From IMG/VR virus record IMGVR_UViG_3300030098_004836, positions 1-40,014 of that record: 40,014 nucleotides of DNA. The stretch is one strand, 5' to 3'. The notes under the pieces are model-generated. The model was not told the origin of the DNA, ran no database searches, and worked only from the letters and a program-made list of their open reading frames with translations. Every line of letters starts with the position of its first letter. Position 1 is the stretch's first letter. Source of the stretch: a virus. Positions 3,899 through 32,752 of the stretch are shown here, in pieces. Both the position numbers and the translations under genes were made by a program.

Positions 3899-4098
3899 TG
3901 CTTCAAAAGCTCGTTATAAATAAGATTATTAATTTACTCGCTAAGAACTTTAAGCTCTTCGAGGTAATGAAATACGTTGAAGAGCCTAACGAGCTTGATG
4001 TAAAGGTGTTGGAGCTTGAGAATAAAATTTTAAAGTTAGAAAAGCTTCAAGGCAAAATAAAAAAGATAGAAAAAAGGTTAGAGTTATTTAAAAAATGA
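3898..4098 (+). CDS. Coiled-coil protein, 66 aa
   Basis: It starts at ATG 3898 inside the previous stop. The N-terminal half is hydrophobic and amphipathic (LVINKIINLLAKNF), and residues 34-66 form a regular Leu/Lys heptad helix (VLELENKILKLEKLQGKIKK). No recognised family. Its C-terminal bases overlap the start of the fibre-like gene at 4095. It could be a membrane-peripheral partner of the preceding proteins or a small virion component. Confidence 0.6.
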   Translation: MLQKLVINKIINLLAKNFKLFEVMKYVEEPNELDVKVLELENKILKLEKLQGKIKKIEKRLELFKK

Positions 4099-5723
4099 GC
4101 TATAATTTAAAAATAGATAAAAACCTTGGTACTGATTTTAAGAATATAAAAGCAGGAGAAGTAAGCAGCCCTATAAACATAAGTGTAGACAAGGTTCAAA
4201 TTGATGGCGATTTAGAGGTTACTGGAAATACTCTTACGTCATTTGACACCGTGTCTTTAAACAGTCTTACAGCAACCACTTTAAACTCTACAACCCATAA
4301 CGCTAATACAATTCAAATTAAAAGCGGGGCAAGCATAGATGGGACTGGGGGAAATGACCAACAATTAGATATAAATTGTTCTACTCTTTTTGTTAATTCG
4401 GTTGATAACTCATCCGTCGAGGAAACTTGCTTTTTGCAATTAATGTCTCTGGCTGATAACGATGTTGGTATTATTTTTAGAGAGGGCGTAAGTCAAATCT
4501 ATTATATGGGGATTGATGCAGATGATAGCGATAAACTAAAAATAGGGGGCGGAGCAACTATTGGAACAAGTACAGTAGCAGAAATTTCAAGCTCTACTAT
4601 AACTTTTAAGACTGATTTCGAATGTCAATCAGGGGCTGGTACAGATATATTTTCAATAAAAGCTGATGGAAGCGCAGATGTATTTCAGGTGGGCGGAGAA
4701 GATGGTAATTATAGTGTATTAAGATTAAATGAGCAAGGGGGTAGTAGCTCTACAGATTATTTTCAAATATTGGTAGAGGAACACGGAGCGACTACAGTAA
4801 CAACTCACGATAATGCTTTATCATCAGCTCATTTGACATTAGATGTTGATGGTGATATTAATTTAGATGCGGATAGTGGCGATATTAAACTTAAAGATGG
4901 TGGGAGCAATGTAGCTACTTTTGATTCATCAAACTTTCGATTTAGGCTTTATAATGGTGATAGTGCTTTGAATCTTGAGACTACAAGCAACAGAGGAGCA
5001 TCTACAATATCGACTGTAGATGCGTCAGGGGCTAACGAAGGTCATCTAAGTATATCTCCATCTGGAACAATTTCGCTCTCACCAGTTTCAGGAGGCGTGT
5101 ATGTAAGGGAAATGGCAATCCCAGCAGGAAATGTGGCTGCTTATGGACAATTATGGGTTAAAAACACTACTCCAAATGAACTTTATTTTACTACTGATGC
5201 AGGAGATTCTATACAAATAACCGATGGAACAAGTTTAGCAGGTGGTGGAGGGGGAACAAGTAGATGGACTTATAGTTGTACGGGATATAAGTCAAGTAAT
5301 TCGAGTAGCACTAATTATTATTATAGTAATTATGCAGGCAGTACATTACTTTGGTCAGGAAGTGATTCAAGCCCTACCACTACAACTTATATACCTTTGC
5401 CTCATTGGATTGCCCCTGCTGATGGCACATTAACAAGAATACAGGCAGAAGTCAGAGTCCAGACAACAGCCGATGATGGTAAGTTTTATGTTTATAAATC
5501 TACTCCTTCTGATGGAGTGACTACAAGAAGCTTAACATTAATAGGGACATCTGATTCTATGGGGATAGATGCAATTAATCAGACTTTTACTGCATCAACA
5601 GCAATAAGCAGTAGTAACACTTTTTCTCAAAATGATGGGCTGTATATTATGTGGAAAAAAGATTCACATAGCGGTACGGCAAGTCATTATTTTACAATAG
5701 CAATAAGCGGAGAATTTAGTTAA
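4095..5723 (+). CDS. Tail fibre-like or virion structural protein, 542 aa
   Basis: A 542-residue Thr/Ser/Gly/Asn-rich protein without enzymatic motifs. Residues 35-90 and 240-275 show short beta-solenoid-like repeats (for example LDVDGDINLDADSGDIKLK), a pattern found in fibre and structural proteins of marine phages. A run of five glycines near residue 382 separates this from a C-terminal Tyr/Ser-rich beta domain (about 388-542) that could be the receptor-facing part. It overlaps both neighbours (ATG inside the preceding gene, TAATG to the next). The genes at 4095-8258 look like a fibre or decoration cluster placed before the connector genes, an unusual position for fibres. Confidence 0.65.
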   Translation: MSYNLKIDKNLGTDFKNIKAGEVSSPINISVDKVQIDGDLEVTGNTLTSFDTVSLNSLTATTLNSTTHNANTIQIKSGASIDGTGGNDQQLDINCSTLFVNSVDNSSVEETCFLQLMSLADNDVGIIFREGVSQIYYMGIDADDSDKLKIGGGATIGTSTVAEISSSTITFKTDFECQSGAGTDIFSIKADGSADVFQVGGEDGNYSVLRLNEQGGSSSTDYFQILVEEHGATTVTTHDNALSSAHLTLDVDGDINLDADSGDIKLKDGGSNVATFDSSNFRFRLYNGDSALNLETTSNRGASTISTVDASGANEGHLSISPSGTISLSPVSGGVYVREMAIPAGNVAAYGQLWVKNTTPNELYFTTDAGDSIQITDGTSLAGGGGGTSRWTYSCTGYKSSNSSSTNYYYSNYAGSTLLWSGSDSSPTTTTYIPLPHWIAPADGTLTRIQAEVRVQTTADDGKFYVYKSTPSDGVTTRSLTLIGTSDSMGIDAINQTFTASTAISSSNTFSQNDGLYIMWKKDSHSGTASHYFTIAISGEFS

Positions 5724-5863
5724 TGGAAAAAATAGATAAAACAGTATCACCTTATATTGATGTTGTAGATGAGAGCAATGTTGATAGTATGTTAGAGATG
5801 AAATTAAGAATGATTCTGGTAGATAAAATTAATGAAATTGTTGATTGGATAAATTCACAATAG
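5723..5863 (+). CDS. Small acidic protein, 46 aa
   Basis: It starts at ATG 5723 overlapping the previous stop and is 46 residues long. The composition is acidic at the N-terminus (YIDVVDESNVDSM) and helical toward the C-terminus (LRMILVDKINEIVDWINSQ). No family recognised. Its position between two fibre-like genes suggests a small structural or assembly helper. It is followed by a GGAGAG ribosome site for the next gene, which partly overlaps its stop codon. Confidence 0.55.
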   Translation: MEKIDKTVSPYIDVVDESNVDSMLEMKLRMILVDKINEIVDWINSQ

Positions 5864-5871
5864 GAGAGTAA

Positions 5872-6654
5872 ATGGGATTAGAAGGAAAAACAATAGCTGG
5901 CTCATACAAAGATTTATTACATTTAAGTAATAATGGCTCTGGGGTATCTGCAACTAATATTCACGTTGTAAAAGACGGCAATGGAACTAATACATCTTTA
6001 CAGGTTGGAAAAAGAGGGACTTTAATAAAAGGACACGCAGACACAACGCTTACATTTCAAGTTTCCGATTCAAGCAATAACGCTGTATTAAATGTCAATA
6101 CTACAGATAAGGCAGTTACGGCTGGCACAACATTAACTAACGTTACAACTCAAATACAAAAATTTGGAGTGTATGATTTACAGCCAACAGCAGACACTCA
6201 TCACGCTATGTACTCTGATGCTGCAATGACTTCTATTTCAGGCTCTATAGACTTTGGAACAGGTGTAGACCCTGCAACTACATATACCTTAAGCTCATCT
6301 GAAGCTAATGCAAATTCTTTAGTAGCCTCTATATGGTATATTCCAACAGCGATTACAGTAGATGAAGTTAGAGTTATAGCGGCAGGAGAAGCGGCAGACA
6401 CTTTAAATTTCCATTTATACAGCTACGATATGGCGAGCGGTACTGGCTCAGGTGCAGGAGATTTATCAAATGGTGCTGTAGTTGCATCAACAGGAAGCAC
6501 TTTAACAACAGGCAATGACAGAGTAACAACAACAACATTAACAATAGATTCTGCAAATGTAGCTGCCGACAAAGTAATTATAGCTACAGTAGAAAATGTA
6601 GGGGCAACGACAGACGTTACCGCACAATTAATAGTAAAATATCACTATCAGTAA
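5872..6654 (+). CDS. Virion structural protein, fibre-like, 260 aa
   Basis: The product has 260 residues, Thr/Ala/Asn-rich, with no enzymatic motif. The N-terminal half has segments such as TLTFQVSDSSNNAVLNVNT typical of beta-rich virion fibres. The C-terminal half (about 110-260) appears to be a beta sandwich with ITVDEVRVIAAGEA and ADKVIIATVENVG. A good ribosome site (GGAGAG) precedes ATG 5872. Together with the neighbours it likely forms part of a fibre or decoration structure. Confidence 0.6.
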   Translation: MGLEGKTIAGSYKDLLHLSNNGSGVSATNIHVVKDGNGTNTSLQVGKRGTLIKGHADTTLTFQVSDSSNNAVLNVNTTDKAVTAGTTLTNVTTQIQKFGVYDLQPTADTHHAMYSDAAMTSISGSIDFGTGVDPATTYTLSSSEANANSLVASIWYIPTAITVDEVRVIAAGEAADTLNFHLYSYDMASGTGSGAGDLSNGAVVASTGSTLTTGNDRVTTTTLTIDSANVAADKVIIATVENVGATTDVTAQLIVKYHYQ

Positions 6655-6665
6655 GGAGAAGAATT

Positions 6666-8258
6666 ATGGCAAGATATGTCAACAGACAAGCAAGCAATTT
6701 AAATAATAATATTTCTAATAAAGAAGAAGTGGCAGAGACAGTACATTCTTTGAATACAATAAAAACTGTTAAGAAAGGGACTTCGAATAGAATATACGCA
6801 ATCGCAACAGACGCTTCATCAAGTGCTACAAACGAATCTATGCCTCGTAAAGTAGAGGTAGTTAATGAAGGAAGGTGTCCTATAACAATACTTACTGGCT
6901 ATGAAACTTATTCAGATGAGACTACTGGGGCTGGGGCAAAAAGATACCTTCAAACCTTATTGATGCCAAATGAATCCTTTGCTCCACCCGTAAGAAGCGT
7001 TATATCGACAGAAGCAGCTTCTACTCAATTTGATGGAACTGCCTCTAATTCAGGGGTTTATACAAAACCAGCAATTTCAAGCAATTTAATGTATGTAGAT
7101 TCAGGCGTTAATTTGGGTGCTAAAATAGAAGATACAGATACTACTATAACTACTGAGGCTAATGGAACAAATGCCTTTAGAGTAGGAGACCTTATACAAA
7201 TAGGAAATGTTAACACAGAAGATGACGACCAAGCTTTAGAAATTATGCGTGTAACAGAAATAACATCTGCTACGGTAATGCAAGTAGATAGAACATTGCA
7301 CGGCTCGGCAGATACTGTTGATGGAGACCAGCAAAATCACGCCACACACGGAGCGGTAAGTGGTGCTAATATAAATTTTCCTTATTTTAATGCCTTTCAC
7401 GATTGCTCGAAATACACTTCATCTAAAACAGATTCTAATGGAAAGTTTAAAGTAAGTAATATGTTTGGTTTAGGAAGAAGCAAAACTGCAACTGACAATG
7501 TCGGAATTGTCGCAGGCTCATTTGCTTTACGTTTTTATAAAGCGGGCTATCAGTCGCTTGGATTAAGCGGGATTAAAAGTTCTACCGAAACTGGTTTAAC
7601 GGCTGGCTCAACCTATTATCTAAAAGTATCTTGTGATGGCTCTACTGCTTTAGAAATTAATGTCACAATAGACTCAAGCAACACTCAGTTTGGAGGAACT
7701 AATGGTCTTATTTCTAAGCTTCAAACTGCTCTTGACGCACAGTTTTATACAGCAGGGCATTTATTTGAAAAGCAAGTTAATGTAGGAATAGTTGATGGAG
7801 ATTTAAGATTTACATCAGGTCAAAGAGGAAGCGACTCTGCAATAGCTCTAAGCGCTGGAACAAGCGGTGCAGATGCGTCTGTAAGGTTTTTTGCACAGGC
7901 TAATGGAAGGATACCTGCTCTTGCCAACTTGAACACGGCTGTGCCAGCAGATGTTCCTGATGAGTATATTTATGACCCAATTACTTACGAAAAATCAAGG
8001 AATGAAGAAGATTTAGCCTACGATGATGGTAGAGGCAATATATTAGGAGCGGCAGTCGGTAAAATTAATTATGAAACGGGTGCTTTTGAGATTCACGGAG
8101 CGCCTATTGATGCAGACTTTCAATACCTTGTTAATCATAGTTCTGCATTATCTGGAAAAGTAAGCTCAGATACAACAGGTAGAATAAATTCTTTGCAAGA
8201 AATATTAGCCAATACTATTAGTCAGAAAGAAGGAAAGGTTAGGGTGAAAGTTTCATAA
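6666..8258 (+). CDS. Virion structural protein, 530 aa
   Basis: The gene has a GGAG ribosome site 8 bases before ATG 6666. The 530-residue product is rich in Ser, Thr, Asn and Ala and has no enzymatic motifs. The N-terminus contains an Asn-rich segment (NLNNNISNKEE). The C-terminal part has an acidic stretch with DPITYEKSRNEEDLAYDDGRG (about 440-460), which looks like a linker before a short terminal domain. I do not recognise the family. Location between fibre-like genes and connector genes supports a virion role. The stop overlaps the next start (TAATG). Confidence 0.6.
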   Translation: MARYVNRQASNLNNNISNKEEVAETVHSLNTIKTVKKGTSNRIYAIATDASSSATNESMPRKVEVVNEGRCPITILTGYETYSDETTGAGAKRYLQTLLMPNESFAPPVRSVISTEAASTQFDGTASNSGVYTKPAISSNLMYVDSGVNLGAKIEDTDTTITTEANGTNAFRVGDLIQIGNVNTEDDDQALEIMRVTEITSATVMQVDRTLHGSADTVDGDQQNHATHGAVSGANINFPYFNAFHDCSKYTSSKTDSNGKFKVSNMFGLGRSKTATDNVGIVAGSFALRFYKAGYQSLGLSGIKSSTETGLTAGSTYYLKVSCDGSTALEINVTIDSSNTQFGGTNGLISKLQTALDAQFYTAGHLFEKQVNVGIVDGDLRFTSGQRGSDSAIALSAGTSGADASVRFFAQANGRIPALANLNTAVPADVPDEYIYDPITYEKSRNEEDLAYDDGRGNILGAAVGKINYETGAFEIHGAPIDADFQYLVNHSSALSGKVSSDTTGRINSLQEILANTISQKEGKVRVKVS

Positions 8259-11626: not shown

Positions 11627-12075
11627 AGCTTAATATACTTGGTAGTCCTTGCGAGGGCTGTAGATACCATAGTTTCCCATACGAGGCACTCTTGCCTTTA
11701 TATAAAGATGGGAAACGAATAAAAATGTCTTTTAATTCAAAAGATGATGTTTGGAGCGCTGTCGATTTATTAATCGATGACGCTCTGAACGCAAACACAA
11801 GTAAAAATAATGTGTCTTCTGCTATTATAGACCAGATACCTTTTTTTACCTGTGTTAACCATTTCTTTACAGACAGTATAAGAAAAGATATTGAAAGATA
11901 TATATATTGCGACCAATTTAAAGTTCCCCCTTATTTAGGGGATTATGGGCAACAACCATCTAAATGGGTTAAAAGAGCTTTTTTAATTAAAAATGCAATA
12001 GCTAAAAAAGAAAGTAAAGATATAGAAAAAATTAAAGCTGAGCAAAAAGCAAAAGCTAATAGCAAGAGGAGATAA
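11602..12075 (+). CDS. Tail assembly chaperone, -1 frame extension (gpT-like)
   Basis: This segment is in the -1 frame relative to the preceding ORF. It is open from upstream of 11602 to 12075 and has no ATG before 11725; the nearest possible independent start is TTG 11692. The region before that TTG still reads like protein (GSPCEGCRYHSFPYEALLPLY), which argues that translation arrives by frameshifting. The most likely slip point is the GGGGG run at 11602-11606 in codons GAG-GGG-GAA, where a Gly-tRNA on GGG can re-pair one base back. The C-terminus is Lys-rich. In long-tailed phages such G-GT fusions assist tape measure and tube assembly. Confidence 0.65.
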   Translation, partial: GGRDALQVELNILGSPCEGCRYHSFPYEALLPLYKDGKRIKMSFNSKDDVWSAVDLLIDDALNANTSKNNVSSAIIDQIPFFTCVNHFFTDSIRKDIERYIYCDQFKVPPYLGDYGQQPSKWVKRAFLIKNAIAKKESKDIEKIKAEQKAKANSKRR

Positions 12076-15000
12076 TGGCTAATAAAATTCAGATAAGATT
12101 TGAGGCGATAGGGGATAAGGCTTTAAGAAAGGCAATACAAGAACTTGCTAAAGCACAGGCTCAGCTTGAAAAAAATACTAAAAATTTAAACAAGGCAAAC
12201 AACGCCTTAAGCTCGGCTAATAATAAAGCTACTCAAGCAACCAATAATCACGCAAGGTCTCAAAAACTTATAAAACAAAGAGTTGAAAAGAATGTTCAAG
12301 CTTTTGGAAAACTTCAATCAACTTTAGCTGTTTATAGAAATAAGCTTTTACTCGCAGCCTTCGCAGCAACAGCTTTTAGGCAAACATTAGGAAGCCTTTT
12401 AGATGCTTATGCAAAACAGGAAGCGGCTGAAAGACAGCTTAGTGCAGTATTAGGAACAAGAAGCAGCAATTTATTAAAATTTGCCGCCGCTCAACAGCAG
12501 GTAACAATGTTTGGAGATGAAGTAACTATTCAAGCAATGTCTCAAACTGCCGCATTTATTAAAGATGAAGAACAAATTAAAGAGGTAATGAAAGCCTCTC
12601 AAGATTTAGCGACTTTATTTGGCTGGGATTTAAATACAGCGGCTCAATTAGTTACTAAAACTATCGCAAGTTCTACAAACGCACTTCAAAGATATGGTAT
12701 AGAAGTAGAGGGCGCAGTTGGTAGTGCAGCAAGATTTGAAAGCGTATTAAGCGCTGTAAACAATGTTGCAGGAGGCTTATCAGAAGAGATGGCTGGCACT
12801 TACACCTATGAAGTAGCTCAATTAGGAAATGCTTGGGGAGATTTAAAAGAAGAATTAGGAAAAGAACTTGCGCCTGTAATTACAAAATTAATAAGACTTA
12901 TTAAAGTTTTTGTTGAAGCGTTAGACCCTGAGAATATAAAAAGATTTATGATATCGTTAACTGCATCGGTGGTTGCTATGAAATCTTTTGCATTTGCTAC
13001 GGCAGGCGCATACACTAAAGGCAAAATGTTTGTTAGAGGAATGAGACTTATGAGCGTTGCTGCAAAAACATTTTCTAAAGCATTGAAAGCTGTTGCGTGG
13101 TTTACGGCTATAGATTTCTTAATACAGATGGCTTCTGCTACAAATAGAGTTAAGGGCGGATTTAATGATGCAACTACAGGAATACACGATTTTGATGCTG
13201 CTATAGAGCAACTTAGCTTAACAACTGGCGGCACAGAACAAACTATAGAGCATTTGCAACAAAAACTTGATAACTTAGAGTTTAAAAAAGAATGGGCTAA
13301 AGGCTGGGAAGAGTCTATGGCACAGGCGAAGAAAAATTGGGAAAGTACAGCGGGTATGCCAGCTTGGATGTCTAAAAGCTTAAATGCTGTAGGCGAATTT
13401 GTAGAAGACGCCATTCTTGACTGGTCTACACACGCTATAGCAGGGTTAGATAGAGTAGACTTAACTGATATTTTTGTTTTTGATAATGACGACAATATAA
13501 TTGATTTTACAGAGAGATTTCACGATATAGTGGTAGAAAAGTTTGGCAAAACTTACGATGAATTAAATGAAATGCAAAAAGCCTCACTTTTCAGAGGAAG
13601 TTTACAGCGACCTGATGCAGTAGGTTATATGGATTGGTCAGACATTAAGCCTGGCACTTTAGACTTTAAATGGGATGAAGGGCTTGTTTTTCAAGAAATA
13701 TTGGATGAAATTGAAAGAACAGAAGATATGTTGCGTGAGCTGGGAGCTATGCCAGATGCGGTAATAGAAGTGCCTGTTAAAGTCAAGCCAATAGTGACTA
13801 TGGATGATGATGATAAATTAGATGATACATTTAGAAAACTACTTCAAGAAGTAAGCGATTGGTATAAAATGAGAACAAAAATCCCTGAAGATAAATTAGG
13901 CGCAGATGTGTTTGAAAAAGCGTTCCCAGAATTACCTATTGAGGAGATAGGAGACGGGTGGGGAGTAGACATTGATAAATTGGTAGAAGTATTTGGAAGA
14001 AAGGCAGCTTTAGCGGATTGGATGGGAATTATTGATATTATTACAAGTGAAGTTGCAAAGCTTCCAGCCGCAATGGATGTCAATTTTGTCGAAGATATTA
14101 TTGTAAAAGCAATCGAAGTAGAATCTTATAAATTAGCAAATAAATTAGATAAAATTCCCGAACAGTTTAATACAATGTTTGACGGGCTAAACTTGTCAGA
14201 GTCTGAAAAGCTTAAAAAACAATTTGATATATATGAAAAACAGATAGAGAGCTATTTAATAGATATGATAAAAGTAGCCGATGCTGGGGCGTTTTCAGCG
14301 CATATAAATCCTGAACAATTCTTTAAAGATTGGACAAAAGATGCTGACCTAACAGGTGTTGACCAGATTGTAAAAAAATCAACGGAGACTTGGGTACAGT
14401 TTTTTGACAGAATGGGCAATTTGCACGATGGTGGGGCAGATATGGTCGCTGACTTTTTTGATACTTATGCCACTACGCTGCAAGACAAGGGGATTGCAAA
14501 TGTAGATGATTGGAAAAAATCTATTGATGAGTGGTTTAGCACGTCTGACCAAAAATTAAAAGATAACTCTAAGAGTGTAGATAATTTAATAAAAAATTAC
14601 CAAAAGAAAACAACTGCCATAGGTGAATTAAACCCAGCCATTGCAGAGTATAATACAGTTATAGAAAGCGCTACTAATATTACAGATAAAAATAAGAAAG
14701 AATTAAAAAAAGCTATTATTGCATATTATGAAGAAAAAAGAGTTATCGATAAAGTAAAAAGCTCAAGACAAGAATTATTAAGTATGATTCATTCGACAGA
14801 GATGGCTGAGCAAAGCCGTATAGCTACTTTACAGAACCAATTAGCCTTACTCGAATCAGTAACTGCCGCAGAATTAGACCAAAACACAAACGTTGCTGAT
14901 TTAGTTAAAAAATATAACGATTTAAATGGAGCTATAGACTTATATGCGTATACCTTGGGAAGTAGTTTTGTTGAGTCTAATGAATTAGCTTTGCAAGAAT

Positions 15001-15716
15001 TGGAAATAGTCAAATTAGAACTTGAAGCATTAAAAAAGCATTTTGAAGGCAATGCTGAAATGGTTGATTATTTAGATAGAGCTTTGCAAGGAGTAGAAAA
15101 ATCGGCATCAAGACTTAGCGCAGAGTTTATAAATTTAAGCGAGTGGGGCGACACGTTAACTACAGCGCTAAGTGGTATTGCTTCAGCGGCTGATGCAGCA
15201 GCTTGGTCTGGAGAGCATATGGGAAGAGCTATGGAACAGGCAATTCAAAGAATGGTTAGTATTATAGCTGCTAAGCTTGTGGTCTTTGCAACGTTTTTTG
15301 CTATATTATCAGGAATAGGTTTGGTTCAAACTGGCTCGCTTGCGGGTGGTCAAACTTTATTATATAATTTAACGGGGGGAGGTTTCTGGGAATCTTTTGC
15401 TAATTTTGCATTTCACAAAGGCGGAAAAGTAAAAGGCTATAGCGTAGGAGGGCAAGTAATGCCTTTATACCATTCTGGCGGAGGGGTTGACGATGTTCCT
15501 GCTATGCTTCAAGAAGGCGAATTTGTTATGCAAAGGAGCGCTGTTGACTCTATAGGTCTTGAAAATTTAAACAGAATGAATAGAACAGGGCAGTCTCAAA
15601 GTGGTGTTAATATTTCTTTTTCTGGAAACGTTTTAAGTCGTGATTTTATTGAAGAAGAAGCTATTCCTAAAATTAAAGATGCAATCCGAAGGGGTGCAGA
15701 TATAGGGATTGGGTAA
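12075..15716 (+). CDS. Tape measure protein, 1213 aa
   Basis: The longest helical protein in the genome and located right after the chaperones. Residues 15-85 are coiled coil (AIQELAKAQAQLEKN ...), with hydrophobic segments at about 88-108, 290-330 and 1060-1090 that fit the membrane-active parts of tape measures. The C-terminus (from about 1115) carries the familiar GGxV...SGGGVDDVPAMLQEGEFVM motif followed by S-A-V. It would set the length of a non-contractile tail and take part in DNA delivery; using the usual 0.15 nm per residue, about 180 nm (inference). The start overlaps the preceding stop (TAATG). Confidence 0.9.
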   Translation: MANKIQIRFEAIGDKALRKAIQELAKAQAQLEKNTKNLNKANNALSSANNKATQATNNHARSQKLIKQRVEKNVQAFGKLQSTLAVYRNKLLLAAFAATAFRQTLGSLLDAYAKQEAAERQLSAVLGTRSSNLLKFAAAQQQVTMFGDEVTIQAMSQTAAFIKDEEQIKEVMKASQDLATLFGWDLNTAAQLVTKTIASSTNALQRYGIEVEGAVGSAARFESVLSAVNNVAGGLSEEMAGTYTYEVAQLGNAWGDLKEELGKELAPVITKLIRLIKVFVEALDPENIKRFMISLTASVVAMKSFAFATAGAYTKGKMFVRGMRLMSVAAKTFSKALKAVAWFTAIDFLIQMASATNRVKGGFNDATTGIHDFDAAIEQLSLTTGGTEQTIEHLQQKLDNLEFKKEWAKGWEESMAQAKKNWESTAGMPAWMSKSLNAVGEFVEDAILDWSTHAIAGLDRVDLTDIFVFDNDDNIIDFTERFHDIVVEKFGKTYDELNEMQKASLFRGSLQRPDAVGYMDWSDIKPGTLDFKWDEGLVFQEILDEIERTEDMLRELGAMPDAVIEVPVKVKPIVTMDDDDKLDDTFRKLLQEVSDWYKMRTKIPEDKLGADVFEKAFPELPIEEIGDGWGVDIDKLVEVFGRKAALADWMGIIDIITSEVAKLPAAMDVNFVEDIIVKAIEVESYKLANKLDKIPEQFNTMFDGLNLSESEKLKKQFDIYEKQIESYLIDMIKVADAGAFSAHINPEQFFKDWTKDADLTGVDQIVKKSTETWVQFFDRMGNLHDGGADMVADFFDTYATTLQDKGIANVDDWKKSIDEWFSTSDQKLKDNSKSVDNLIKNYQKKTTAIGELNPAIAEYNTVIESATNITDKNKKELKKAIIAYYEEKRVIDKVKSSRQELLSMIHSTEMAEQSRIATLQNQLALLESVTAAELDQNTNVADLVKKYNDLNGAIDLYAYTLGSSFVESNELALQELEIVKLELEALKKHFEGNAEMVDYLDRALQGVEKSASRLSAEFINLSEWGDTLTTALSGIASAADAAAWSGEHMGRAMEQAIQRMVSIIAAKLVVFATFFAILSGIGLVQTGSLAGGQTLLYNLTGGGFWESFANFAFHKGGKVKGYSVGGQVMPLYHSGGGVDDVPAMLQEGEFVMQRSAVDSIGLENLNRMNRTGQSQSGVNISFSGNVLSRDFIEEEAIPKIKDAIRRGADIGIG

Positions 15717-18700
15717 TGATAGAAAGTTCAGCTCAGTTTATACGTACGTTATCTAAGACATCTAATTATATATATTATATTGTTCACCTAAATTCAAGCC
15801 AAAACGATAAATCAAAACATATATTTATATCTAATAAAAAAACTTCTAATTTTATAGACCCTGAATGTTCTGGCTTTTTAGATTTAGATTTAAAAGTTTC
15901 CCCTATAAAAGAAAGCATAAATCTGCAAGAAAAAAGCTTTAATACTAATAAAATATCTTTTTCTGTCTCCAACTCAGATAGTAAGGGAAAAAGCTTTACC
16001 GACCTTTTGTATAACACTAATTTTCAGGGAGCTGAATTAAAAATTTATATAGCGTCTGATGGAAGCGAAAGTGTAGATGATTGTGTTAATATATTCACAG
16101 GATATATTACGCAAGTTCAATCAGACTCTAAAAGGTGTGAAATATCCGCTGAAGACTATTCTTCATATACATTTAAAGAAAAAACTATACCAAAAAGAAA
16201 AAACCAGCAATCTACGCAAGAGCTTATAGACGGAAACGAAAACATACCGATTCCTATGGTTTATGGTCAAGTTGAAAACTCTAAAATGTTAATGACAAGA
16301 CCGCACATAAACAACTTAAAATCATATATATATCCCGACGCAGTTGACCAAGGAATAAATATTCTCGGATTTTCTACTGATTATAAAGCTTTGCAAATCT
16401 TTAGAGATAAGCTTTATTTAGATATTCCTCAAATATTTCAAGAAGTTGGTGCGGAGGACGACCCTTTAATTATTAACGGAATTAACTATAATTTGCTTTA
16501 TGTAGGCACACCTCAATATGAGATTGAGCAAGACCATATTCTTATAGAAAAAAAGATGTCTGGAAATTCTTTTACAGAGGGGATGCCATTAAATATACAG
16601 GCAAGAGAGCAGTTTCAGGTAGATGTTGAAAGAACCCCTTCAGGAATACAGCCCACATCTTCAGACTCAGTTCTTACATACGGGTATAATAATGAACAAG
16701 AAATAACATTTAACGGACACCAAAACGGATATAATATAAGCGATGGAGCAACATCGTGGAATTTTCCTCTTCCAACCGAAGGAATTCCTATAAGCTATCG
16801 TGAAAACATAGTTGTGGGACATATAACAAGAAAATTAGATAATGGAACGAGCGGAGAAGATTCTGGCTCTATTTGGTGGGTAAACGAGTATCTTAATCAC
16901 TCTAAACTTATGAATCAATATGACCCTAATGGATTTGGGGTAATAGAGATAGTTAGGCATCCTTCCGCAGATGAAGTAGCTGAAGTCTTAAACTTGCCAG
17001 ATGGCTATTACGGTCACGGCGAGATGAAAGTAAAAATATACGTTTGGAGACAAACGAGCGGTACTGGAGCATATATAGGACGTGTTTATCCGTATTGGTG
17101 GTGGACACAGTTGCCTGACCTTGAAGATTTGCAAGGCGCTGATAGTTTGTACGATTTTTGGAACGGGATAGCGGGAGAATGGATAAGAGATTATTTTAAG
17201 GGAGAGCTAAAGTATGCGTGGTCTACTGATGTTGTTGTTCGACACCCCTCTATTCAAGCTCTTAACTTAGGGACTTTGGGTAATTGGCTTAATATAGAAC
17301 AAGACTTTCAGCAATTTGAGATGGTTTATGGATATTCTTTTACAGATGGTCAAGATATTATAAAAATTAGGTTAGACGAAGACCTAACAGAGCAATTTGG
17401 CTCTGGGGCGGCATACCTTCCAAATTCAATATTAGGCGGTAAGGGTAGCTGGATAACAACTAATTCGTGTGGAGATGGGCTTCAATCAACTCCAAACCCC
17501 AGCACCTCAAATCAACGTCAATTTGCGTCAGAGATACCAGATTTAATAGGAGAGTGGGGAGCGCACGGTTCTCAAGGATACTATTATTGTTACGCAAATG
17601 GTTATCGTGTACCAACATTAAGAAAGTTTCTATATGGAAGAAGAATAACGGAAGACGAACATACGGAGACTGGGGGCGCTATTCCTTTAGGCACTTGGGT
17701 ATATGGAATTTTTCCAATAATCGGAGCTTTTAATCCTAAACACTTTAATCAAAGTGATGAGGATTCTTCTGGAGGAATGTATGTTTATGATATGGTTGGA
17801 GATGGTTGCTTGGCTTACGGAAACCCTTATTTTTACGGAGCAAGAAACCTTGAAACAGGCGAATACTACGAAAGTGGCAGTTATAATTTTGGTACTATGA
17901 GAATAGATGAGCTTAATGTTATTGAGTTTGAGGCAACTCCTAATGTTGCTATAAACGCTGACCATCAATGGGCAATAGGAATCCATAATAACTTTGGATA
18001 CGGATTTGGAAAATTAATTACAGATTGGTGGTGTCATACTCCTGGTTGGAATCAGTATGAGAGCGACCAACACCCTAACGGAGCAGCCCACAACATTAGA
18101 CCTGTTATAAAAAGTATTGGAAATTTAGCGCAAACAGGCGGAAGTTATTGCCCTATTCAATATACTGACGGCTTGGCTACAGCAGTTAAGATGGATATTA
18201 CATTTAATTCTGTGACTGGCTCAGATATAATACAAGGCTCAGTATACTCTATGTTTAAATGCAAAATAGATACCGAGTTTTCTTTGTTAGAGGTTGGAGA
18301 TTCCTCTGATGACCCAGCTAAAAACGTAGATTTTTTAGTTGAAGCCGATTGTTTTAAAATTAGAAGCGGACAGGGAAAAGGACATAATGACATTATAAGA
18401 AAAGAAAAGGTTAATACGCTTCCATTAACAAATATCCAAATTCAAACTGTTACCGACCATAACGGAAATACTTGGGACGAAGCGGTTGCAACAAACCCAT
18501 ATCATTGGAATACTGGAAGAGAACCAGAAGGCGAGGAATTAGGAAGCGTTTGGGACGAATATTTAACCGACACTAATTTAAATCTATCTTCTTGGATTGA
18601 TGATGAAGGAGTTCCTCAAACTGACCCAACTACAGTTATGAACGAATGTGATTCACACGAAGTTACCCCTGAAGATATACAAGCAGGTCGTGTAAATGCT

Positions 18701-20038
18701 TGGAGAGAAAATTTAAGTGCGGTAGACGGAGTTTCTTTAACTTTTAGGCTTGGATATAATTATGATATACATCACTTTCAAGACCCTGAGACTCAAAATT
18801 TTGACCTAAACTCGCAACTAAATGAAGACGCTCCTTTCCCTGACAATATAGTAAGGGGAAAATTTAAAGCTTGGCTAAGCAACATATCTTTAAAGCAAAG
18901 ATATATTGTTGGAAATATAAGTCAGCTTGATTACTATGGAAATGTTTTAGGAAGAATTGATGATTCAGATGGTTACTATACAGGGTCTGACTTTCAGGAC
19001 GCAGAGCCTAATATTGAATGGCTTTTAAGAAAGCCTTCTGATATTTTTATACATATATTAGATAAAGAGCTTGATAATACAAGACAGTATAACCAATCTT
19101 CTATAGACTCTTGTCGTTTGTCCGATTGGAAGTTTGATTTTTGTCAAGCAGAAGAGATTGATGGTAAAAATTTTATTGACGATTTTTCTAAAAGCACTTT
19201 TTTCATTCCAAAGTTTTCAAGCGATAATTATTTTTCTTATATAAATCTATTAACACGAAGCACATCTAAGGTTATTGATAAAAAAGATGTTATAAACTTT
19301 GAATATTCAAGAACTCCTAAAGATGACTTAATTTTAAAGTGTAGGGTTCGCTATAATTGGGATGAAGGCTTACAGACATATTTAAACGAAACAAATCCAT
19401 TCGGACACGGAATAATGCCTGCTCAATATCAGCTATATGAAGAATCTTACAACATTAGAAATTCAAATGATTTTTATCTTGATTTTGAATCAAAATATAT
19501 AAGAGATGATGAAACGGCTTTAAAGCTTAGAAACTTTATTTTAAATTGGAATAAAAATATTCATACTGTAATAGAATGTGAGCTTCCTGCAAACTATATG
19601 GTTTTAGAGTGTGGAGACTTTGTTAAATTTAATGATTTATTAGGGGGCTTAAAAGCTTTTGGAATAGATTACACAGACCCGTACGGTTATTTTGTTAACG
19701 AACAACACTATGATGGAAGCTTTATAGTAACCGAAACAAAAAAATCTTTAAAAACCGTAAAAATTACTTGCGTTGCAGCGCCGTCCTTAGTAAACCAACT
19801 ATTAGTAGAATCGGAGTCAGGAAGTTTTGTAAATTTTGAACTAATGGAGGGAACGGGAGACGTTAATTTAGATGGCTCCACAAATATTATGGATGTCATA
19901 ATTCTTGTTAACTATATAATTGGGACTCCTCAAAACCAGCTTAGCCCGCAAGAAGCACTTATTGCAGATGTGGATGAAGATGGCTTTGTTGATATTTTAG
20001 ATTTAGTAGCAATAATTCAAGATATTGTAAATGGTTAA
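15716..20038 (+). CDS. Tail tip / distal tail protein with C-terminal dockerin domain, 1440 aa
   Basis: The N-terminal 150 residues (QEKSFNTNKISFSVSNSDSK, CVNIFTGYITQV) resemble distal-tail or hub proteins that attach to the tube end. The very long middle part is Trp/Tyr/Gly-rich with many beta segments and shows no catalytic motif I can name. Residues 1381-1440 are a two-repeat dockerin type I: loops D1382-x-N1384-x-D1386-G and D1418-x-D1420-x-D1422-G, each followed by the hydrophobic dockerin helix (IMDVIILVNYI, ILDLVAIIQDI). Dockerins bind Ca2+ and a cohesin partner. It starts inside the tape measure stop and is followed after 14 bases by a gene with a possible cohesin-like segment. Confidence 0.8.
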   Translation: MIESSAQFIRTLSKTSNYIYYIVHLNSSQNDKSKHIFISNKKTSNFIDPECSGFLDLDLKVSPIKESINLQEKSFNTNKISFSVSNSDSKGKSFTDLLYNTNFQGAELKIYIASDGSESVDDCVNIFTGYITQVQSDSKRCEISAEDYSSYTFKEKTIPKRKNQQSTQELIDGNENIPIPMVYGQVENSKMLMTRPHINNLKSYIYPDAVDQGINILGFSTDYKALQIFRDKLYLDIPQIFQEVGAEDDPLIINGINYNLLYVGTPQYEIEQDHILIEKKMSGNSFTEGMPLNIQAREQFQVDVERTPSGIQPTSSDSVLTYGYNNEQEITFNGHQNGYNISDGATSWNFPLPTEGIPISYRENIVVGHITRKLDNGTSGEDSGSIWWVNEYLNHSKLMNQYDPNGFGVIEIVRHPSADEVAEVLNLPDGYYGHGEMKVKIYVWRQTSGTGAYIGRVYPYWWWTQLPDLEDLQGADSLYDFWNGIAGEWIRDYFKGELKYAWSTDVVVRHPSIQALNLGTLGNWLNIEQDFQQFEMVYGYSFTDGQDIIKIRLDEDLTEQFGSGAAYLPNSILGGKGSWITTNSCGDGLQSTPNPSTSNQRQFASEIPDLIGEWGAHGSQGYYYCYANGYRVPTLRKFLYGRRITEDEHTETGGAIPLGTWVYGIFPIIGAFNPKHFNQSDEDSSGGMYVYDMVGDGCLAYGNPYFYGARNLETGEYYESGSYNFGTMRIDELNVIEFEATPNVAINADHQWAIGIHNNFGYGFGKLITDWWCHTPGWNQYESDQHPNGAAHNIRPVIKSIGNLAQTGGSYCPIQYTDGLATAVKMDITFNSVTGSDIIQGSVYSMFKCKIDTEFSLLEVGDSSDDPAKNVDFLVEADCFKIRSGQGKGHNDIIRKEKVNTLPLTNIQIQTVTDHNGNTWDEAVATNPYHWNTGREPEGEELGSVWDEYLTDTNLNLSSWIDDEGVPQTDPTTVMNECDSHEVTPEDIQAGRVNAWRENLSAVDGVSLTFRLGYNYDIHHFQDPETQNFDLNSQLNEDAPFPDNIVRGKFKAWLSNISLKQRYIVGNISQLDYYGNVLGRIDDSDGYYTGSDFQDAEPNIEWLLRKPSDIFIHILDKELDNTRQYNQSSIDSCRLSDWKFDFCQAEEIDGKNFIDDFSKSTFFIPKFSSDNYFSYINLLTRSTSKVIDKKDVINFEYSRTPKDDLILKCRVRYNWDEGLQTYLNETNPFGHGIMPAQYQLYEESYNIRNSNDFYLDFESKYIRDDETALKLRNFILNWNKNIHTVIECELPANYMVLECGDFVKFNDLLGGLKAFGIDYTDPYGYFVNEQHYDGSFIVTETKKSLKTVKITCVAAPSLVNQLLVESESGSFVNFELMEGTGDVNLDGSTNIMDVIILVNYIIGTPQNQLSPQEALIADVDEDGFVDILDLVAIIQDIVNG
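19856..20035 (+). other. Dockerin domain coding segment
   Basis: This segment encodes residues 1381-1440 of the tail protein. It has two F-hand calcium loops with Asp/Asn at positions 1, 3, 5, 9 and 12 (first loop D-V-N-L-D-G-S-T-N-I-M-D). A linker of about 25 residues separates the repeats, as in cellulosomal dockerins. It is the last part of the protein, as in most secreted dockerin proteins. Confidence 0.85.
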
Positions 20039-20052
20039 ATATAGGGAAATTT

Positions 20053-20712
20053 ATGATTAGAAAATCAATACATTCATTAAAAAGAAAATTTAAACACAGC
20101 CTAACATCTGCATCTTTACAATATAAAGATGGAGTGGTAACCTTAACAACAGACGCTCCTTTCCAAGCTGTTGAAATTCATTTTAGAGGAAACTTTCAAG
20201 GATTTTCTATGGCAGGTTCTGATTACTATATTGGCGTAGGAAGAGAAAAAATTGTTATAATCTCTTTTATAAAACATAATATTTTTGACAATAGAACGTT
20301 AAGTTTGTTTAAATTTTATGGAAATTTTTTTCCAACCTCTTGCAGGGTAGTTCAACATAAATATTCATCAGTTTATGCCGATATAGTTAGAGAAAACAAC
20401 ACGTTTAATAAGGATGCTAAATGGGAAGGAATACACTTAAATTGGGAAAATTTTACAGACCCAAGCATTAACTATATTGACAATAATAATGAAGAAATTA
20501 GAACTTTTAAAAAAGGGTCTTCAAATTATATGGAAAATGATATAGATACAAATTTATTTGAAGTTTATGATGAAAGTGGGCAAAGGTATTACGGAAATGC
20601 GAAGTCAGCAATAGTTAATAATAAAGTAAGATTTTATAAAAATGACGGCGGCAATATTGTAAATAGAAAAAATATTTTAAAAGGAAAAAATAAATGGCAA
20701 ACAGAGAGGTAG
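20053..20712 (+). CDS. Tail protein with possible cohesin-like domain, 219 aa
   Basis: The protein has 219 residues. Residues 18-115 read as a beta sandwich: SLQYKDGVVTLTTDAPFQAV, EIHFRGNFQGFSM, REKIVIISFIKHN, CRVVQHKYSSVYADIV. The sequence of short strand, 'DAP.qavei.f.G', and a later 'ADIV' strand recalls cohesin-like modules that follow dockerin repeats in Marinimicrobia-type proteins (resemblance by eye). The C-terminal 100 residues are polar, with an Asn/Tyr-rich linker. The gene is 14 bases after the dockerin-bearing gene, so the two products may bind each other. Its end overlaps the next gene by 19 bases. Confidence 0.5.
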   Translation: MIRKSIHSLKRKFKHSLTSASLQYKDGVVTLTTDAPFQAVEIHFRGNFQGFSMAGSDYYIGVGREKIVIISFIKHNIFDNRTLSLFKFYGNFFPTSCRVVQHKYSSVYADIVRENNTFNKDAKWEGIHLNWENFTDPSINYIDNNNEEIRTFKKGSSNYMENDIDTNLFEVYDESGQRYYGNAKSAIVNNKVRFYKNDGGNIVNRKNILKGKNKWQTER

Positions 20713-21914
20713 GACTACCAAGATTTTATATAGACTTTTCAGCATTAGCAAGAGTTTTGGGGTTATGGGTAACTCAAAAGGAAGAATGGGAAGGCGGCTC
20801 ATATGAATTTGATAGAAATAGTCACGTTATAGACAGAATGAATAGTTCGCAGTATGATTTGGGTAGCGAAAACCTTTCGAACGCTTATGAGGTTTGGCTT
20901 GGAGACTATAGCACTCCAAAAACTTTTTTATTTTCAGCTTCTGCTGGAGAAATTAAACCCCATCTTCATATGTCTTTTTGGAACGTGTATGGTGTCAATT
21001 ATAATCTTGATTGGGCTAAATTAATGACAACAACCAACTGGTATGGTGTGCTAAATCATAGTTTTCACAACGCAGTTACCTCTGACTCAGATGTTAATAA
21101 TGTTGTTGTCTCTGGATTTTTTAGCAACTCAAATAACAGTATAAGTCAGCACGGAGTTCCTACAGGAAGAAATGAAGATACAGTTTGTGACACGCAGCAG
21201 ATGGAAGAATATAACGGGTTTAGCATAACAACATTTGACAACCCTATGTGTATGCCTATCAATGAGAGCAATTATCTATCACATAACGATATTAATAAAT
21301 ATGGAAGATTTTGCGTTAGGTTTACTCCTGATTTAGATGGCGTATTCCCAAACGATAGATATGAGATTAGTATAGGGGCGCTAATGTTTGGAAAATATTT
21401 TGATATGCCTCATTCTCCAGACTTACAGGTTAAAAAAAGTATTTCTTTTGATGGGGTTGATTCATCAAGGGGAGTTAGCGGTTCAGACTTTGTCCATATT
21501 AATAACACGGGATTACCAGCTTGGCAACACGGAGATGCTTGGAAAAATGTGTCGTACGATAATAAAGGAAGGGCTTTAAACTTAGGAACAGGCGGAAGAA
21601 GGTCTTGGAATATGAAATTTTCTTACGTAAGCCAAAGCAATATGTTTATAAACCACCATCAAGATAAATCTTTTGGATACCTGTCTAATGAATCAAGCTC
21701 TATGGAATTTACTGAGGGGTCAGACGGCGTTATAGAATCTATATTTCAACTAACTTTAGGCGGAGCTGTTCCTTTTGTGTTTTGCCCAGATTCAAATGCC
21801 TCTGCTTCTGAAAAAGAATTTGCTGTATGTAGGTTTGCTAAAGACTCTCTATCTATAACTCAAACAGCTAATAATGTATGGGATGTTCAAATGATATTGG
21901 AAGAAGTCTGGTAA
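20694..21914 (+). CDS. Minor tail protein, 406 aa
   Basis: The last gene of the rightward structural operon. It encodes 406 residues, rich in aromatic residues, Ser and Asn, with short strands and no enzymatic motif; the C-terminus (AVCRFAKDSLSITQTANNVW, then a hydrophobic-acidic end) fits a beta-sandwich domain seen in tail or baseplate proteins. It starts at ATG 20694 with AAAGG-type ribosome site inside the previous gene. It ends 38 bases before a convergent gene and 20 bases before palindrome copy A. Confidence 0.65.
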   Translation: MANREVGLPRFYIDFSALARVLGLWVTQKEEWEGGSYEFDRNSHVIDRMNSSQYDLGSENLSNAYEVWLGDYSTPKTFLFSASAGEIKPHLHMSFWNVYGVNYNLDWAKLMTTTNWYGVLNHSFHNAVTSDSDVNNVVVSGFFSNSNNSISQHGVPTGRNEDTVCDTQQMEEYNGFSITTFDNPMCMPINESNYLSHNDINKYGRFCVRFTPDLDGVFPNDRYEISIGALMFGKYFDMPHSPDLQVKKSISFDGVDSSRGVSGSDFVHINNTGLPAWQHGDAWKNVSYDNKGRALNLGTGGRRSWNMKFSYVSQSNMFINHHQDKSFGYLSNESSSMEFTEGSDGVIESIFQLTLGGAVPFVFCPDSNASASEKEFAVCRFAKDSLSITQTANNVWDVQMILEEVW

Positions 21915-30090: not shown

Positions 30091-30873
30091 CTAAACGTTC
30101 ATTCCGTTGAAAGCGTCGTCACATTCTACGCAAACACGATAAGACCCGTTTCCGCTCAAGTCTCTTAAGTCATTCGTTGAGACGTTACAATAATCACATT
30201 TTTCAAGCTTAGCAAAATCGTCTGTAATACCGCTAAATTTAGACTTTTTAAGCTTTAATGACTTACCCTTAGGCTTTAACGTTATCGGCTTGTAATTGTA
30301 GCCGTAAGACCACCCACAAGCGACCGCACCGCCCGAAGACTTGTAACTGTTATTCGAATACCAAACGTTTCCGTTCCAATGTCCTAAATTCTCGTTAATA
30401 ATTGTGAAATCATTTTGAGAATTTAAGAAGACAAGTTTAGAATGTCCGATAAAATCGCCAATTAGCTTTCTTGTTGCTTTGTAGCTTAAGAAATCGGTCG
30501 GCAAATCTTGTAAGATATCTCTATTAAAAACTTGAGTATCTGACAGTTTTTTATCGTCTTTAACGTTGTGAATCATACCGTTATGAGCAAAAACCAAGTC
30601 TTCCGACACCTTAAACGGATGCACGTTAAAAGTGCCTTCATTCGTGCCGTGTGTACTCAGTCTAAAATGCACAATAAAATTTGACTCTTGATTGTGCAAA
30701 ACGTCGCCCTCGTACTGTTTAAAAAACTTAGAAAACTTTCTAAATTTTTTAGTTGTGATTTTGCCGTCTCTGACAAAGCTATATCCGACCCCGTCACGAT
30801 TGCCGTTAAAAGCCGTTTGCAATGATTCCTTTTCGATATGTCCGTCTTTCTTTTTAAGTATTAGTAAACACAT
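30091..30873 (-). CDS. Class II glutamine amidotransferase with C-terminal zinc ribbon
   Basis: A 260-residue Ntn-type glutaminase. C2 directly after Met is the nucleophile; further family motifs are NRDGVGYSF (N25, D27), VHFRLSTHG (R71), NVHPF (H85) and FAHNG (N98-G99). It would release ammonia from glutamine and hand it to a partner enzyme, here most likely the neighbouring amidoligase. The C-terminus carries C226-x2-C229 and C248-x2-C251, a zinc ribbon. The ribosome site is AAGGGG. Codon use is richer in CpG and in GAC/ACG codons than other genes. It ends at a strong terminator and is preceded by a hammerhead ribozyme. Confidence 0.85.
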   Translation of the reverse strand: MCLLILKKKDGHIEKESLQTAFNGNRDGVGYSFVRDGKITTKKFRKFSKFFKQYEGDVLHNQESNFIVHFRLSTHGTNEGTFNVHPFKVSEDLVFAHNGMIHNVKDDKKLSDTQVFNRDILQDLPTDFLSYKATRKLIGDFIGHSKLVFLNSQNDFTIINENLGHWNGNVWYSNNSYKSSGGAVACGWSYGYNYKPITLKPKGKSLKLKKSKFSGITDDFAKLEKCDYCNVSTNDLRDLSGNGSYRVCVECDDAFNGMNV

Positions 30874-31135: not shown

Positions 31136-32686
31136 CTAAATCCTCACACGTTGAGCGGGGAAGTTCAAAAAGCTTTCTCCCCAATTTTGAGCCTTTACCC
31201 AAGAAACCAAGTTCTCAAATTTGCCCGACTCCTCGACGTGTTTCCAATATTTTTTAAAGTCTAAAAAGTTCGTCAAGTCTGAGACCTTCGCCCACTCTCT
31301 CATCGACTCGGCAAACTCAATATTTTTTCTGAACGTTTGTTCATTCATTGAAGACCTAAATATTCGTAGTTCTAACGTCTGACGATTTGAAAAGTTAGTT
31401 GCCAAATATCTGTCGTCCCCGACCGCTAACGTCTTAAGGCTTGCGAAATCTGTCGTCCCGTTGTTTCTGTCATATCTAAACTGATACGTCAAAGTCTCGG
31501 AAACCATTCCCGCAATATTATCCGAGAATTTAGCCCATTGACGTAATTTATCCGCCGAACGTTGAGACACTTTAAAAGCAAACCCTTTCCAATGATTTAA
31601 GAATTTGGCGATTTTGTACTGATTCAGACCCGACATTGTCGAACGGTTTAAGTGGACGTGAATCCCGCAAGATTTCGACACGTTCCACCCTAAAATCTGA
31701 CCTCTCAATTTGAACAGTTCTTCGAAGCCGTAAGACGTGAAAAACTCGTAACTCATCGGGTGAGATACAATCTCGACACCCGTTCGACCGTTGCCGTTAA
31801 TTGAGCCGTCGTTTACACAAAACAAGAATCCGCCTTCTAATGTGTTATTAATTTTTGAGACGACTTTTTGTTGGTCAAATCTCGTCAAGCCTTCTTTGAA
31901 TTGTACCTCTAATTCAAAGCCAAGTAAATCTTTATCGGCTCTTAAATTCTCTCTAACGATAGACCCGTTTAAAACGTCCCAACAAAATAATTCGGGTTTA
32001 TGCCCATATCCACGAATACCCGTTGGTATATCGTAATCACAATCCCGACAAATCCCGCCGTCTGTCTCAGTTTGAAGAAGGTCGTCACGATGAAAACGGT
32101 CTCCGCACGATATACAATCCGAGAATAAACTCTCATAATTTGAAAGTTCATATATTCGACCGTTTGCCGACGTCGAATTAAAATTCTCAACGTTGTAATA
32201 TCGCCCGTCAGATGCACATCTAAAAAATTGGCTCATATATTTACGGTCAATTTTATGAGCCGTGACCGTTCTTACACCGTCCCCGCCTTCTATTCTATTT
32301 AAAACAAACGTCCCCCTCTGATAAATAAAAGTCTCCTCAGAAGACACACCGCAAACGACGGGTAAGGCTCTCAAGTAATCTGTATCGCCGACCTCAAAAA
32401 ATCCGCCTATAAATCTATCAATTAAAAACGTGTTAAATTGGTTTTCAATCGAAGACGTTAGACTTGAAACCTCTCTTGATACGTCTATTAATTGCTCAAA
32501 ATCTATATAGGCTAAGCCGTGAGGCAATCCAATTTCGTGAATCCCGTCGTCGTTAGTGATTCGCAAACCGTGTATCTTACTATATGTCCGCCCTTCGATT
32601 GTTGCGATACCGTAACGTCTTGTCCCGTCTACGTTTCCGTTAATGATGCTTAATTTAGTTCCTTTAATATATATTTGGTTTCCCAT
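31136..32686 (-). CDS. Amidoligase (COOH-NH2 ligase, glutamine-synthetase-like fold) with zinc ribbon
   Basis: ATG 32686 is chosen for its AAGGAG 5 bases upstream; an in-frame start at 32746 would put the start at the likely transcription start. The 516-residue protein has an N-terminal domain (1-185), a zinc ribbon (C191-x2-C194, C213-x2-C216) and then the amidoligase core: LGFELEVQF (256-263), NDGSI (292-296), GVEIVSHP (303-310), SCGIHVHLNRS (339-349) and LELRIFRSS (438-446), the motifs expected for the ATP/Mg2+ site. Such enzymes join amines to carboxylates in peptides or proteins, often with a glutaminase partner. The target is unknown. Confidence 0.85.
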   Translation of the reverse strand: MGNQIYIKGTKLSIINGNVDGTRRYGIATIEGRTYSKIHGLRITNDDGIHEIGLPHGLAYIDFEQLIDVSREVSSLTSSIENQFNTFLIDRFIGGFFEVGDTDYLRALPVVCGVSSEETFIYQRGTFVLNRIEGGDGVRTVTAHKIDRKYMSQFFRCASDGRYYNVENFNSTSANGRIYELSNYESLFSDCISCGDRFHRDDLLQTETDGGICRDCDYDIPTGIRGYGHKPELFCWDVLNGSIVRENLRADKDLLGFELEVQFKEGLTRFDQQKVVSKINNTLEGGFLFCVNDGSINGNGRTGVEIVSHPMSYEFFTSYGFEELFKLRGQILGWNVSKSCGIHVHLNRSTMSGLNQYKIAKFLNHWKGFAFKVSQRSADKLRQWAKFSDNIAGMVSETLTYQFRYDRNNGTTDFASLKTLAVGDDRYLATNFSNRQTLELRIFRSSMNEQTFRKNIEFAESMREWAKVSDLTNFLDFKKYWKHVEESGKFENLVSWVKAQNWGESFLNFPAQRVRI

Positions 32687-32752
32687 TTTTACTCCTTTCT
32701 CTCGTCGAGAATTTGTTATTGTTTCGTTAATCTTGCCGTCAATCATACCTAT

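Follow-up and report, generated by a model that had tools for sequence, protein, structure and literature searches.

The DNA analysed here (hereafter the window) is a single virus record of 40,014 bases. Judged by its head and packaging genes (terminase, neck and capsid) together with its tail genes, it belongs to a tailed phage. Within the tail module (Table 1) the gene of the tail hub protein, P0001, follows directly downstream of the gene for a probable tape-measure protein, an order that is common to relatives, and the C-terminus of the tape-measure protein (GNVxSxDFIExEAIPxIKxAIRRGADIG) is conserved in them. Two shorter genes follow the hub. P0002 is a small tail-tip protein and P0003 is possibly a gpM-like tip protein; neither of them gave a Pfam match. 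Outside this module, fibre-like proteins are encoded at 4095-8258, one of them at 4095-5723. Two major capsid genes that are 80% identical lie one at each end of the record (3-992 and 38800-39957), the first being truncated at its 5' end. Relatives have one copy, and the pair reflects either a tandem duplication across a circular junction or an assembly fault. On the minus strand, the gene for a class II glutamine amidotransferase-like protein (30091-30873) adjoins that of an Amidoligase_2 protein (31136-32746), the two being possibly a ligase/amidase pair.

Table 1. Features of the tail module, with positions in the window and the basis of each assignment.
Feature	Position	Strand	Basis
Tail module	~8.6 to 21.9 kb		
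Probable tape-measure protein, 1213 aa, directly upstream of the hub gene	12075..15716	+	Length, position, conserved C-terminus
Tail hub protein P0001, 1440 aa: L-like domain, variable middle, J-like hub, C-terminal dockerin	15716..20038	+	ORF; structure matches; gene order in relatives
N-terminal domain of lambda gpL / GTA tail-tip type, residues 1-160	15716..16195	+	AF2 model
Variable middle region, residues 320-1060, mostly low-confidence model	16673..18895	+	pLDDT
Tail hub domain of lambda J / JBD30 / Chi / T5 pb3 kind, residues 1067-1367	18914..19816	+	VIA-align
Flexible linker, about residues 1364-1378	19805..19849	+	pLDDT < 50 at model residues 764-778
Dockerin domain, residues 1381-1440, extreme C-terminus	19856..20035	+	PF00404; fold match to 1ohz_B and 2ccl_B
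Calcium loop 1 (F-hand), DVNLDGSTNIMD, residues 1382-1393, D1382-V-N-L-D-G-S-T-N-I-M-D1393	19859..19894	+	
Calcium loop 2 (F-hand), DVDEDGFVDILD, residues 1418-1429, D1418-V-D-E-D-G-F-V-D-I-L-D1429	19967..20002	+	
Small tail-tip protein P0002, 219 aa	20053..20712	+	Position conserved in relatives; fusion in L261
P0003, 406 aa, final gene of the tail module, C-terminus conserved	20694..21914	+	Position conserved in relatives

An earlier note on this DNA had placed a dockerin on a tail protein. Structural comparison bears this out and identifies the carrier as the tail-tip hub. The N-terminal domain of the AlphaFold2 (AF2) model resembles lambda gpL (8iyk_L; Z 12.4, 3.2 Å, 141 residues), the GTA protein 6tba_7A (Z 13.2) and T5 pb3 (7zhj_b; Z 9.4). 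The middle region that follows has pLDDT mostly below 50 (residues 318-478 and 487-809) and is patchy up to about residue 1060. For the hub domain, VIA-align matched JBD30 (8rk3_b; Z 17.9, 3.8 Å, 257 residues), Chi (8vjh_A; Z 17.7), lambda J (8xcg_J; Z 17.4), T1 (9l9p_S; Z 15.8), GTA (6tba_8A; Z 14.5) and T5 pb3 (7zhj_b; Z 12.3). The combination of L-like and J-like matches indicates that P0001 is a tail hub in which both parts are fused, as they are in T5 pb3. The hub of lambda J reaches to about residue 607 and is followed by FNIII domains and the central fibre; in P0001 only about 73 residues remain after the hub domain, a linker and the dockerin. Hubs of the lambda J/T5 pb3 fold form trimers; the tail would accordingly carry three dockerins at its end, and more than three in relatives with doubled modules. 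By its family membership, P0001 would be trimeric and its dockerin exposed at the tip.

The Pfam search that had been proposed as a check gave Dockerin_1 (PF00404) as the sole match of the 1440-residue protein (residues 1381-1436, E 5e-9, 36.7 bits, the curated cut-off being 22.9 bits), and in a six-frame search of the window the same family scored 41.6 bits (E 6e-12). When the last 63 residues were searched by sequence against solved structures, the matches were mostly dockerins (best E 2.3e-5). The C-terminal dockerin with two calcium loops is thus confirmed by Pfam, by the paired loops and by the predicted fold, and its limits had been given exactly, codon 1381 beginning at 19856 and codon 1440 ending at 20035. 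Both F-hand loops are 12 residues long and have Asp/Asn at the calcium positions, features that are kept in relatives; in a 38-row alignment Asp 1382, 1386, 1393, 1418 and 1429 are at least 90% conserved. The domain would probably bind calcium. Loop positions 10-11 are V/I-L in most dockerin copies, in both loops (the motif filter used for these statistics fixes D1, D5 and D12, so that only the remaining positions are informative). Known dockerins have recognition residues at positions 10-11, and the V/I-L pairs would form a repeated hydrophobic patch at that site.

The AF2 model that covers the dockerin comprises residues 601-1440 and was built from an alignment with 37 relatives. It divides into three parts (model numbering): the hub at about 467-767, then a linker that is disordered (764-778) and last a compact C-terminus (780-840). 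The latter, with helices at 791-802, 811-817 and 827-839 (pLDDT 81-91), shows the paired F-hand loops and three helices after the linker. In VIA-align, model residues 781-838 matched the C. thermocellum dockerin 1ohz_B (Z 11.2, 0.9 Å over 56 residues), residues 778-840 matched 2ccl_B (Z 11.7) and the C-terminal stretch matched 3ul4_B (Z 10.3). The best solved matches were all dockerins.

How widely the domain is carried was examined with several queries. A terminase query gave 217 relatives in viral contigs. A hub homologue was detectable in 20 of the 50 terminase-related records examined (22-50% identity in matched segments), and in 19 of these 20 Dockerin_1 was over the cut-off. A dockerin-blind query with the hub domain alone recovered 80 loci with 28-45% identity to the window. 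The hub protein carries a dockerin in 77 of them and the other three are truncated by the contig end, so the domain is present in all 77 intact hub C-termini, in 72 of them at most 12 residues from the stop; this hub-domain alignment was built from dockerin-bearing hubs and may under-sample distant dockerin-free hub families. The domain is neither absent from relatives nor devoid of paired F-hand loops, the two grounds for doubt raised in the earlier note. The hub family is diverse, yet the dockerin is kept, which argues that the domain is retained for use. A DNA pattern of the dockerin, run over the viral collection, matched at least 120 contigs, and among the listed matches dozens carry the same hub with a terminal dockerin, homology being no part of that query. 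The full hub query found no close relatives by exact peptides and no match among isolate phages. One relative, G049 (L274), has no recognisable dockerin and its C-terminus keeps a possible remnant (DINGTNSVTLKDS); apart from it, no outgroup hub homologue without dockerin was found.

The position of the domain is variable in some of these genomes. In L212 (274-834, minus strand) and L234 (687-1247, minus strand) a protein of its own, 186 aa long, carries the dockerin; its gene lies just downstream of the hub and overlaps the end of the hub gene, so that the dockerin behaves like an add-on. L261 has P0002 fused to the rear of the dockerin, and several relatives have an additional, degenerate dockerin-like module ahead of the terminal one. 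In many relatives two genes (with products of about 570-640 and 790-890 aa) share out the hub, the dockerin being on the second (for example L257:5724-9940, L258:8742-13252 and L262-L265). Dockerins occur also on other viral proteins. A secreted protease of the trypsin-like type that bears a dockerin, together with a short helical tail, is encoded by L175 (7668-8972, plus strand; E 2.8e-56 for Trypsin and 1.9e-9 for Dockerin_1), and dockerin-tagged trypsin-like proteases appear as well in L170 (6960-8126, minus strand), L192 (11257-11895, minus strand) and L172 (4072-4428, plus strand). Gut-phage dockerins gave weak scores, one being on a hypothetical protein near a record end.

The divergence of the dockerin was compared with that of the hub that bears it. 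Among independent pairs whose hub DNA is 80-98.5% identical (18 pairs), identity was lower in the dockerin than in the hub in 15 (Wilcoxon p 1e-4), and non-synonymous divergence was higher in the dockerin in 16 (p 5e-5), synonymous sites being near saturation in several of the pairs. The variable middle region of the hub is also fast-diverging. Some pairs have a dockerin island of about 60% identity between flanks that are at least 93% identical. In the pair L196/L248 the hub domain is about 97% identical, the dockerin 61% and the downstream gene 93%, and synonymous divergence rises from 0.08 in the hub to 0.45 in the dockerin. Such an island between conserved flanks points to the exchange of a cassette and not to point mutation. 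A conserved calcium frame with a fast-changing surface would fit a module of binding specificity. Relaxed constraint can likewise raise the divergence of a terminal domain, which would speak against this reading; we consider it the weaker alternative because exchange is seen, and not loss.

Taken together, these observations suggest that a large group of uncultured marine phages attaches to its hosts by an interchangeable plug and socket. In the mechanism that we propose, the hub would be a natural fusion of lambda L-like and lambda J-like parts, like T5 pb3, and each of its chains would continue into the flexible linker and a calcium-bound dockerin, which would replace the FNIII domains and the central fibre. 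The dockerin would be exposed and would dock into a cohesin-like domain that the host displays on its surface or secretes onto it, and this docking would set, or help to set, host recognition at adsorption. Docking into a host cohesin is plausible, and the rapid exchange relative to the flanks would fit a specificity module. The most likely reading, to which we give about even chances, makes the dockerin an exchangeable adhesion tip that depends on calcium and binds a cohesin-like receptor of the host. The broader proposal, that a marine tailed-phage lineage adsorbs by cohesin-dockerin recognition and changes its specificity by swapping dockerin cassettes, is put forward more tentatively, at somewhat less than even chances. 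Against the adhesion reading, specificity may sit instead in the variable middle region or in the fibre-like protein at 4095-5723, and G049 has no recognisable dockerin.

The partner of the dockerin could also be sought in the phage itself, as the earlier note had offered as an alternative. This idea received no support: Cohesin (PF00963) was not over the cut-off in any of 77 phage records (31 + 46), in a sequence search that would miss a very divergent cohesin, and the comparison of the tail proteins with Pfam gave no cohesin. Searches with a home-made cohesin profile and profile-profile comparison of the tail proteins were likewise negative, the profile being weak even on some true cohesins. 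Two sub-threshold cohesin matches were dismissed, one in a homologue of the major tail protein (L275) and the other in a short ORF, judged spurious, that lies opposite a fibre-like gene (L276). As far as such searches reach, the lack of a detected phage cohesin favours a partner in the host. The corresponding explanation would make the dockerin an internal joint, plugged into a cohesin-like domain of a separate phage protein (a detachable fibre or tip protein) that would itself bind the host, much as T5 pb3 bears pb4 as a fibre apart. It is attractive in that the hub ends without a fibre of its own, fibre-like proteins are encoded in the window, and P0002 and P0003 keep the same order in relatives, P0002 being even fused behind the dockerin in one of them. 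Besides the negative cohesin searches, the downstream sequence remains about 93% identical despite dockerin exchange, which argues against co-variation with P0002, and we regard this explanation as unlikely.

The search for a host gave little to hold on to. The only close terminase match in GTDB genomes was a 13-kb contig, possibly a binning product, in the MAG bacterium TMED88 (unclassified in NCBI). Neither dockerin nor cohesin was found in this MAG, which makes the host link to TMED88 weak and also counts against the adhesion reading. Among the viral contigs, L136 (IMG/VR) encodes a protein that combines a type IX secretion sorting domain with dockerin repeats of a similar kind, which stay below the Pfam threshold, and the hubs of L146 (residues ~880-1030) and L251 (~1070-1200) have GCTDPNAxNYNPxATxDDGSC repeats around a non-terminal dockerin. 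We take both the sorting domain and these repeats to be associated with marine FCB-group bacteria, and treat them as a lead.

Two further roles for the dockerin were considered. The calcium ligands are its most conserved feature and it sits at the tip of the hub, as would be expected if it were a structural plug that closes or rigidifies the tail tip, or that triggers its opening upon a change of calcium or of the membrane environment, with no cohesin bound. A plug fitted to the hub is ill-suited to the rapid exchange, the disordered linker and the occurrence as a separate protein in L212 and L234, and we find this role quite unlikely. The dockerin might otherwise act as a secondary tether that fastens the phage to secreted host material or particles bearing cohesins and increases encounters, while another part of the tail binds the true receptor. 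The highly variable middle region of the hub and the fibre-like protein at 4095-5723 would be available for the latter, and the dockerin-tagged protease of viral contigs such as L175 indicates that dockerins serve other extracellular roles in marine phages. Nevertheless, near-universal retention at the tail tip better fits an obligatory step than an aid, and the tether appears very unlikely to us. Finally, the odd partial second capsid gene at the contig ends hints that the assembly may have faults, but an assembly chimera or a chance EF-hand-like match is refuted by the same architecture in dozens of independent contigs, as well as by a fold match specifically to dockerins, leaving it a practically negligible probability.

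Our literature search found no report of a dockerin on a tail hub. The nearest are a dockerin-like gene product of phage VvAW1 (PMC3558961) and a protein of an E. coli phage that bears a carbohydrate-binding module (PMC5967307), neither case being that of a tail hub with a dockerin. The domain is an ordinary dockerin and the protein an ordinary hub, while their combination, its fixation in a marine lineage and the exchange of the domain are, as far as we have checked, new. If the adhesion reading is true, the receptor of uncultured phages would become predictable from sequence, by way of the cohesin, and phage tails would possess a natural, swappable adhesion module.

Dockerins are calcium-binding plugs used by bacteria to assemble complexes of cellulose-degrading enzymes. 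Their pairs with cohesins, which occur in cellulosomes and in secreted proteins of bacteria, rank among the strongest and best-engineered couplings between proteins. The dockerin as plug is what P0001 shares with the cellulosome system, whereas no cohesin or scaffoldin was found in the 77 phage records. With type I dockerins (PF00404; 1ohz/2ccl of C. thermocellum) it shares the two F-hand loops, the three helices and the near-twofold repeat, but those dockerins are borne by an enzyme or scaffoldin instead of a phage tail hub, and the phage copies mostly have the hydrophobic V/I-L in either repeat, at positions 10-11 of the loop. The hubs of lambda (J), T1, JBD30 and Chi have the same hub fold (Z 15-18, for a predicted model) and the same place after the tape measure. 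Unlike lambda J, P0001 has an L-like domain fused at its N-terminus and, in place of the FNIII domains and the receptor-binding fibre, a linker and a dockerin. In T5 pb3, too, a single long chain begins with an L-like part and goes on to a J-like hub, but that chain finishes with FNIII domains and is joined to a separate fibre, pb4, whereas the chain of P0001 ends in the dockerin.
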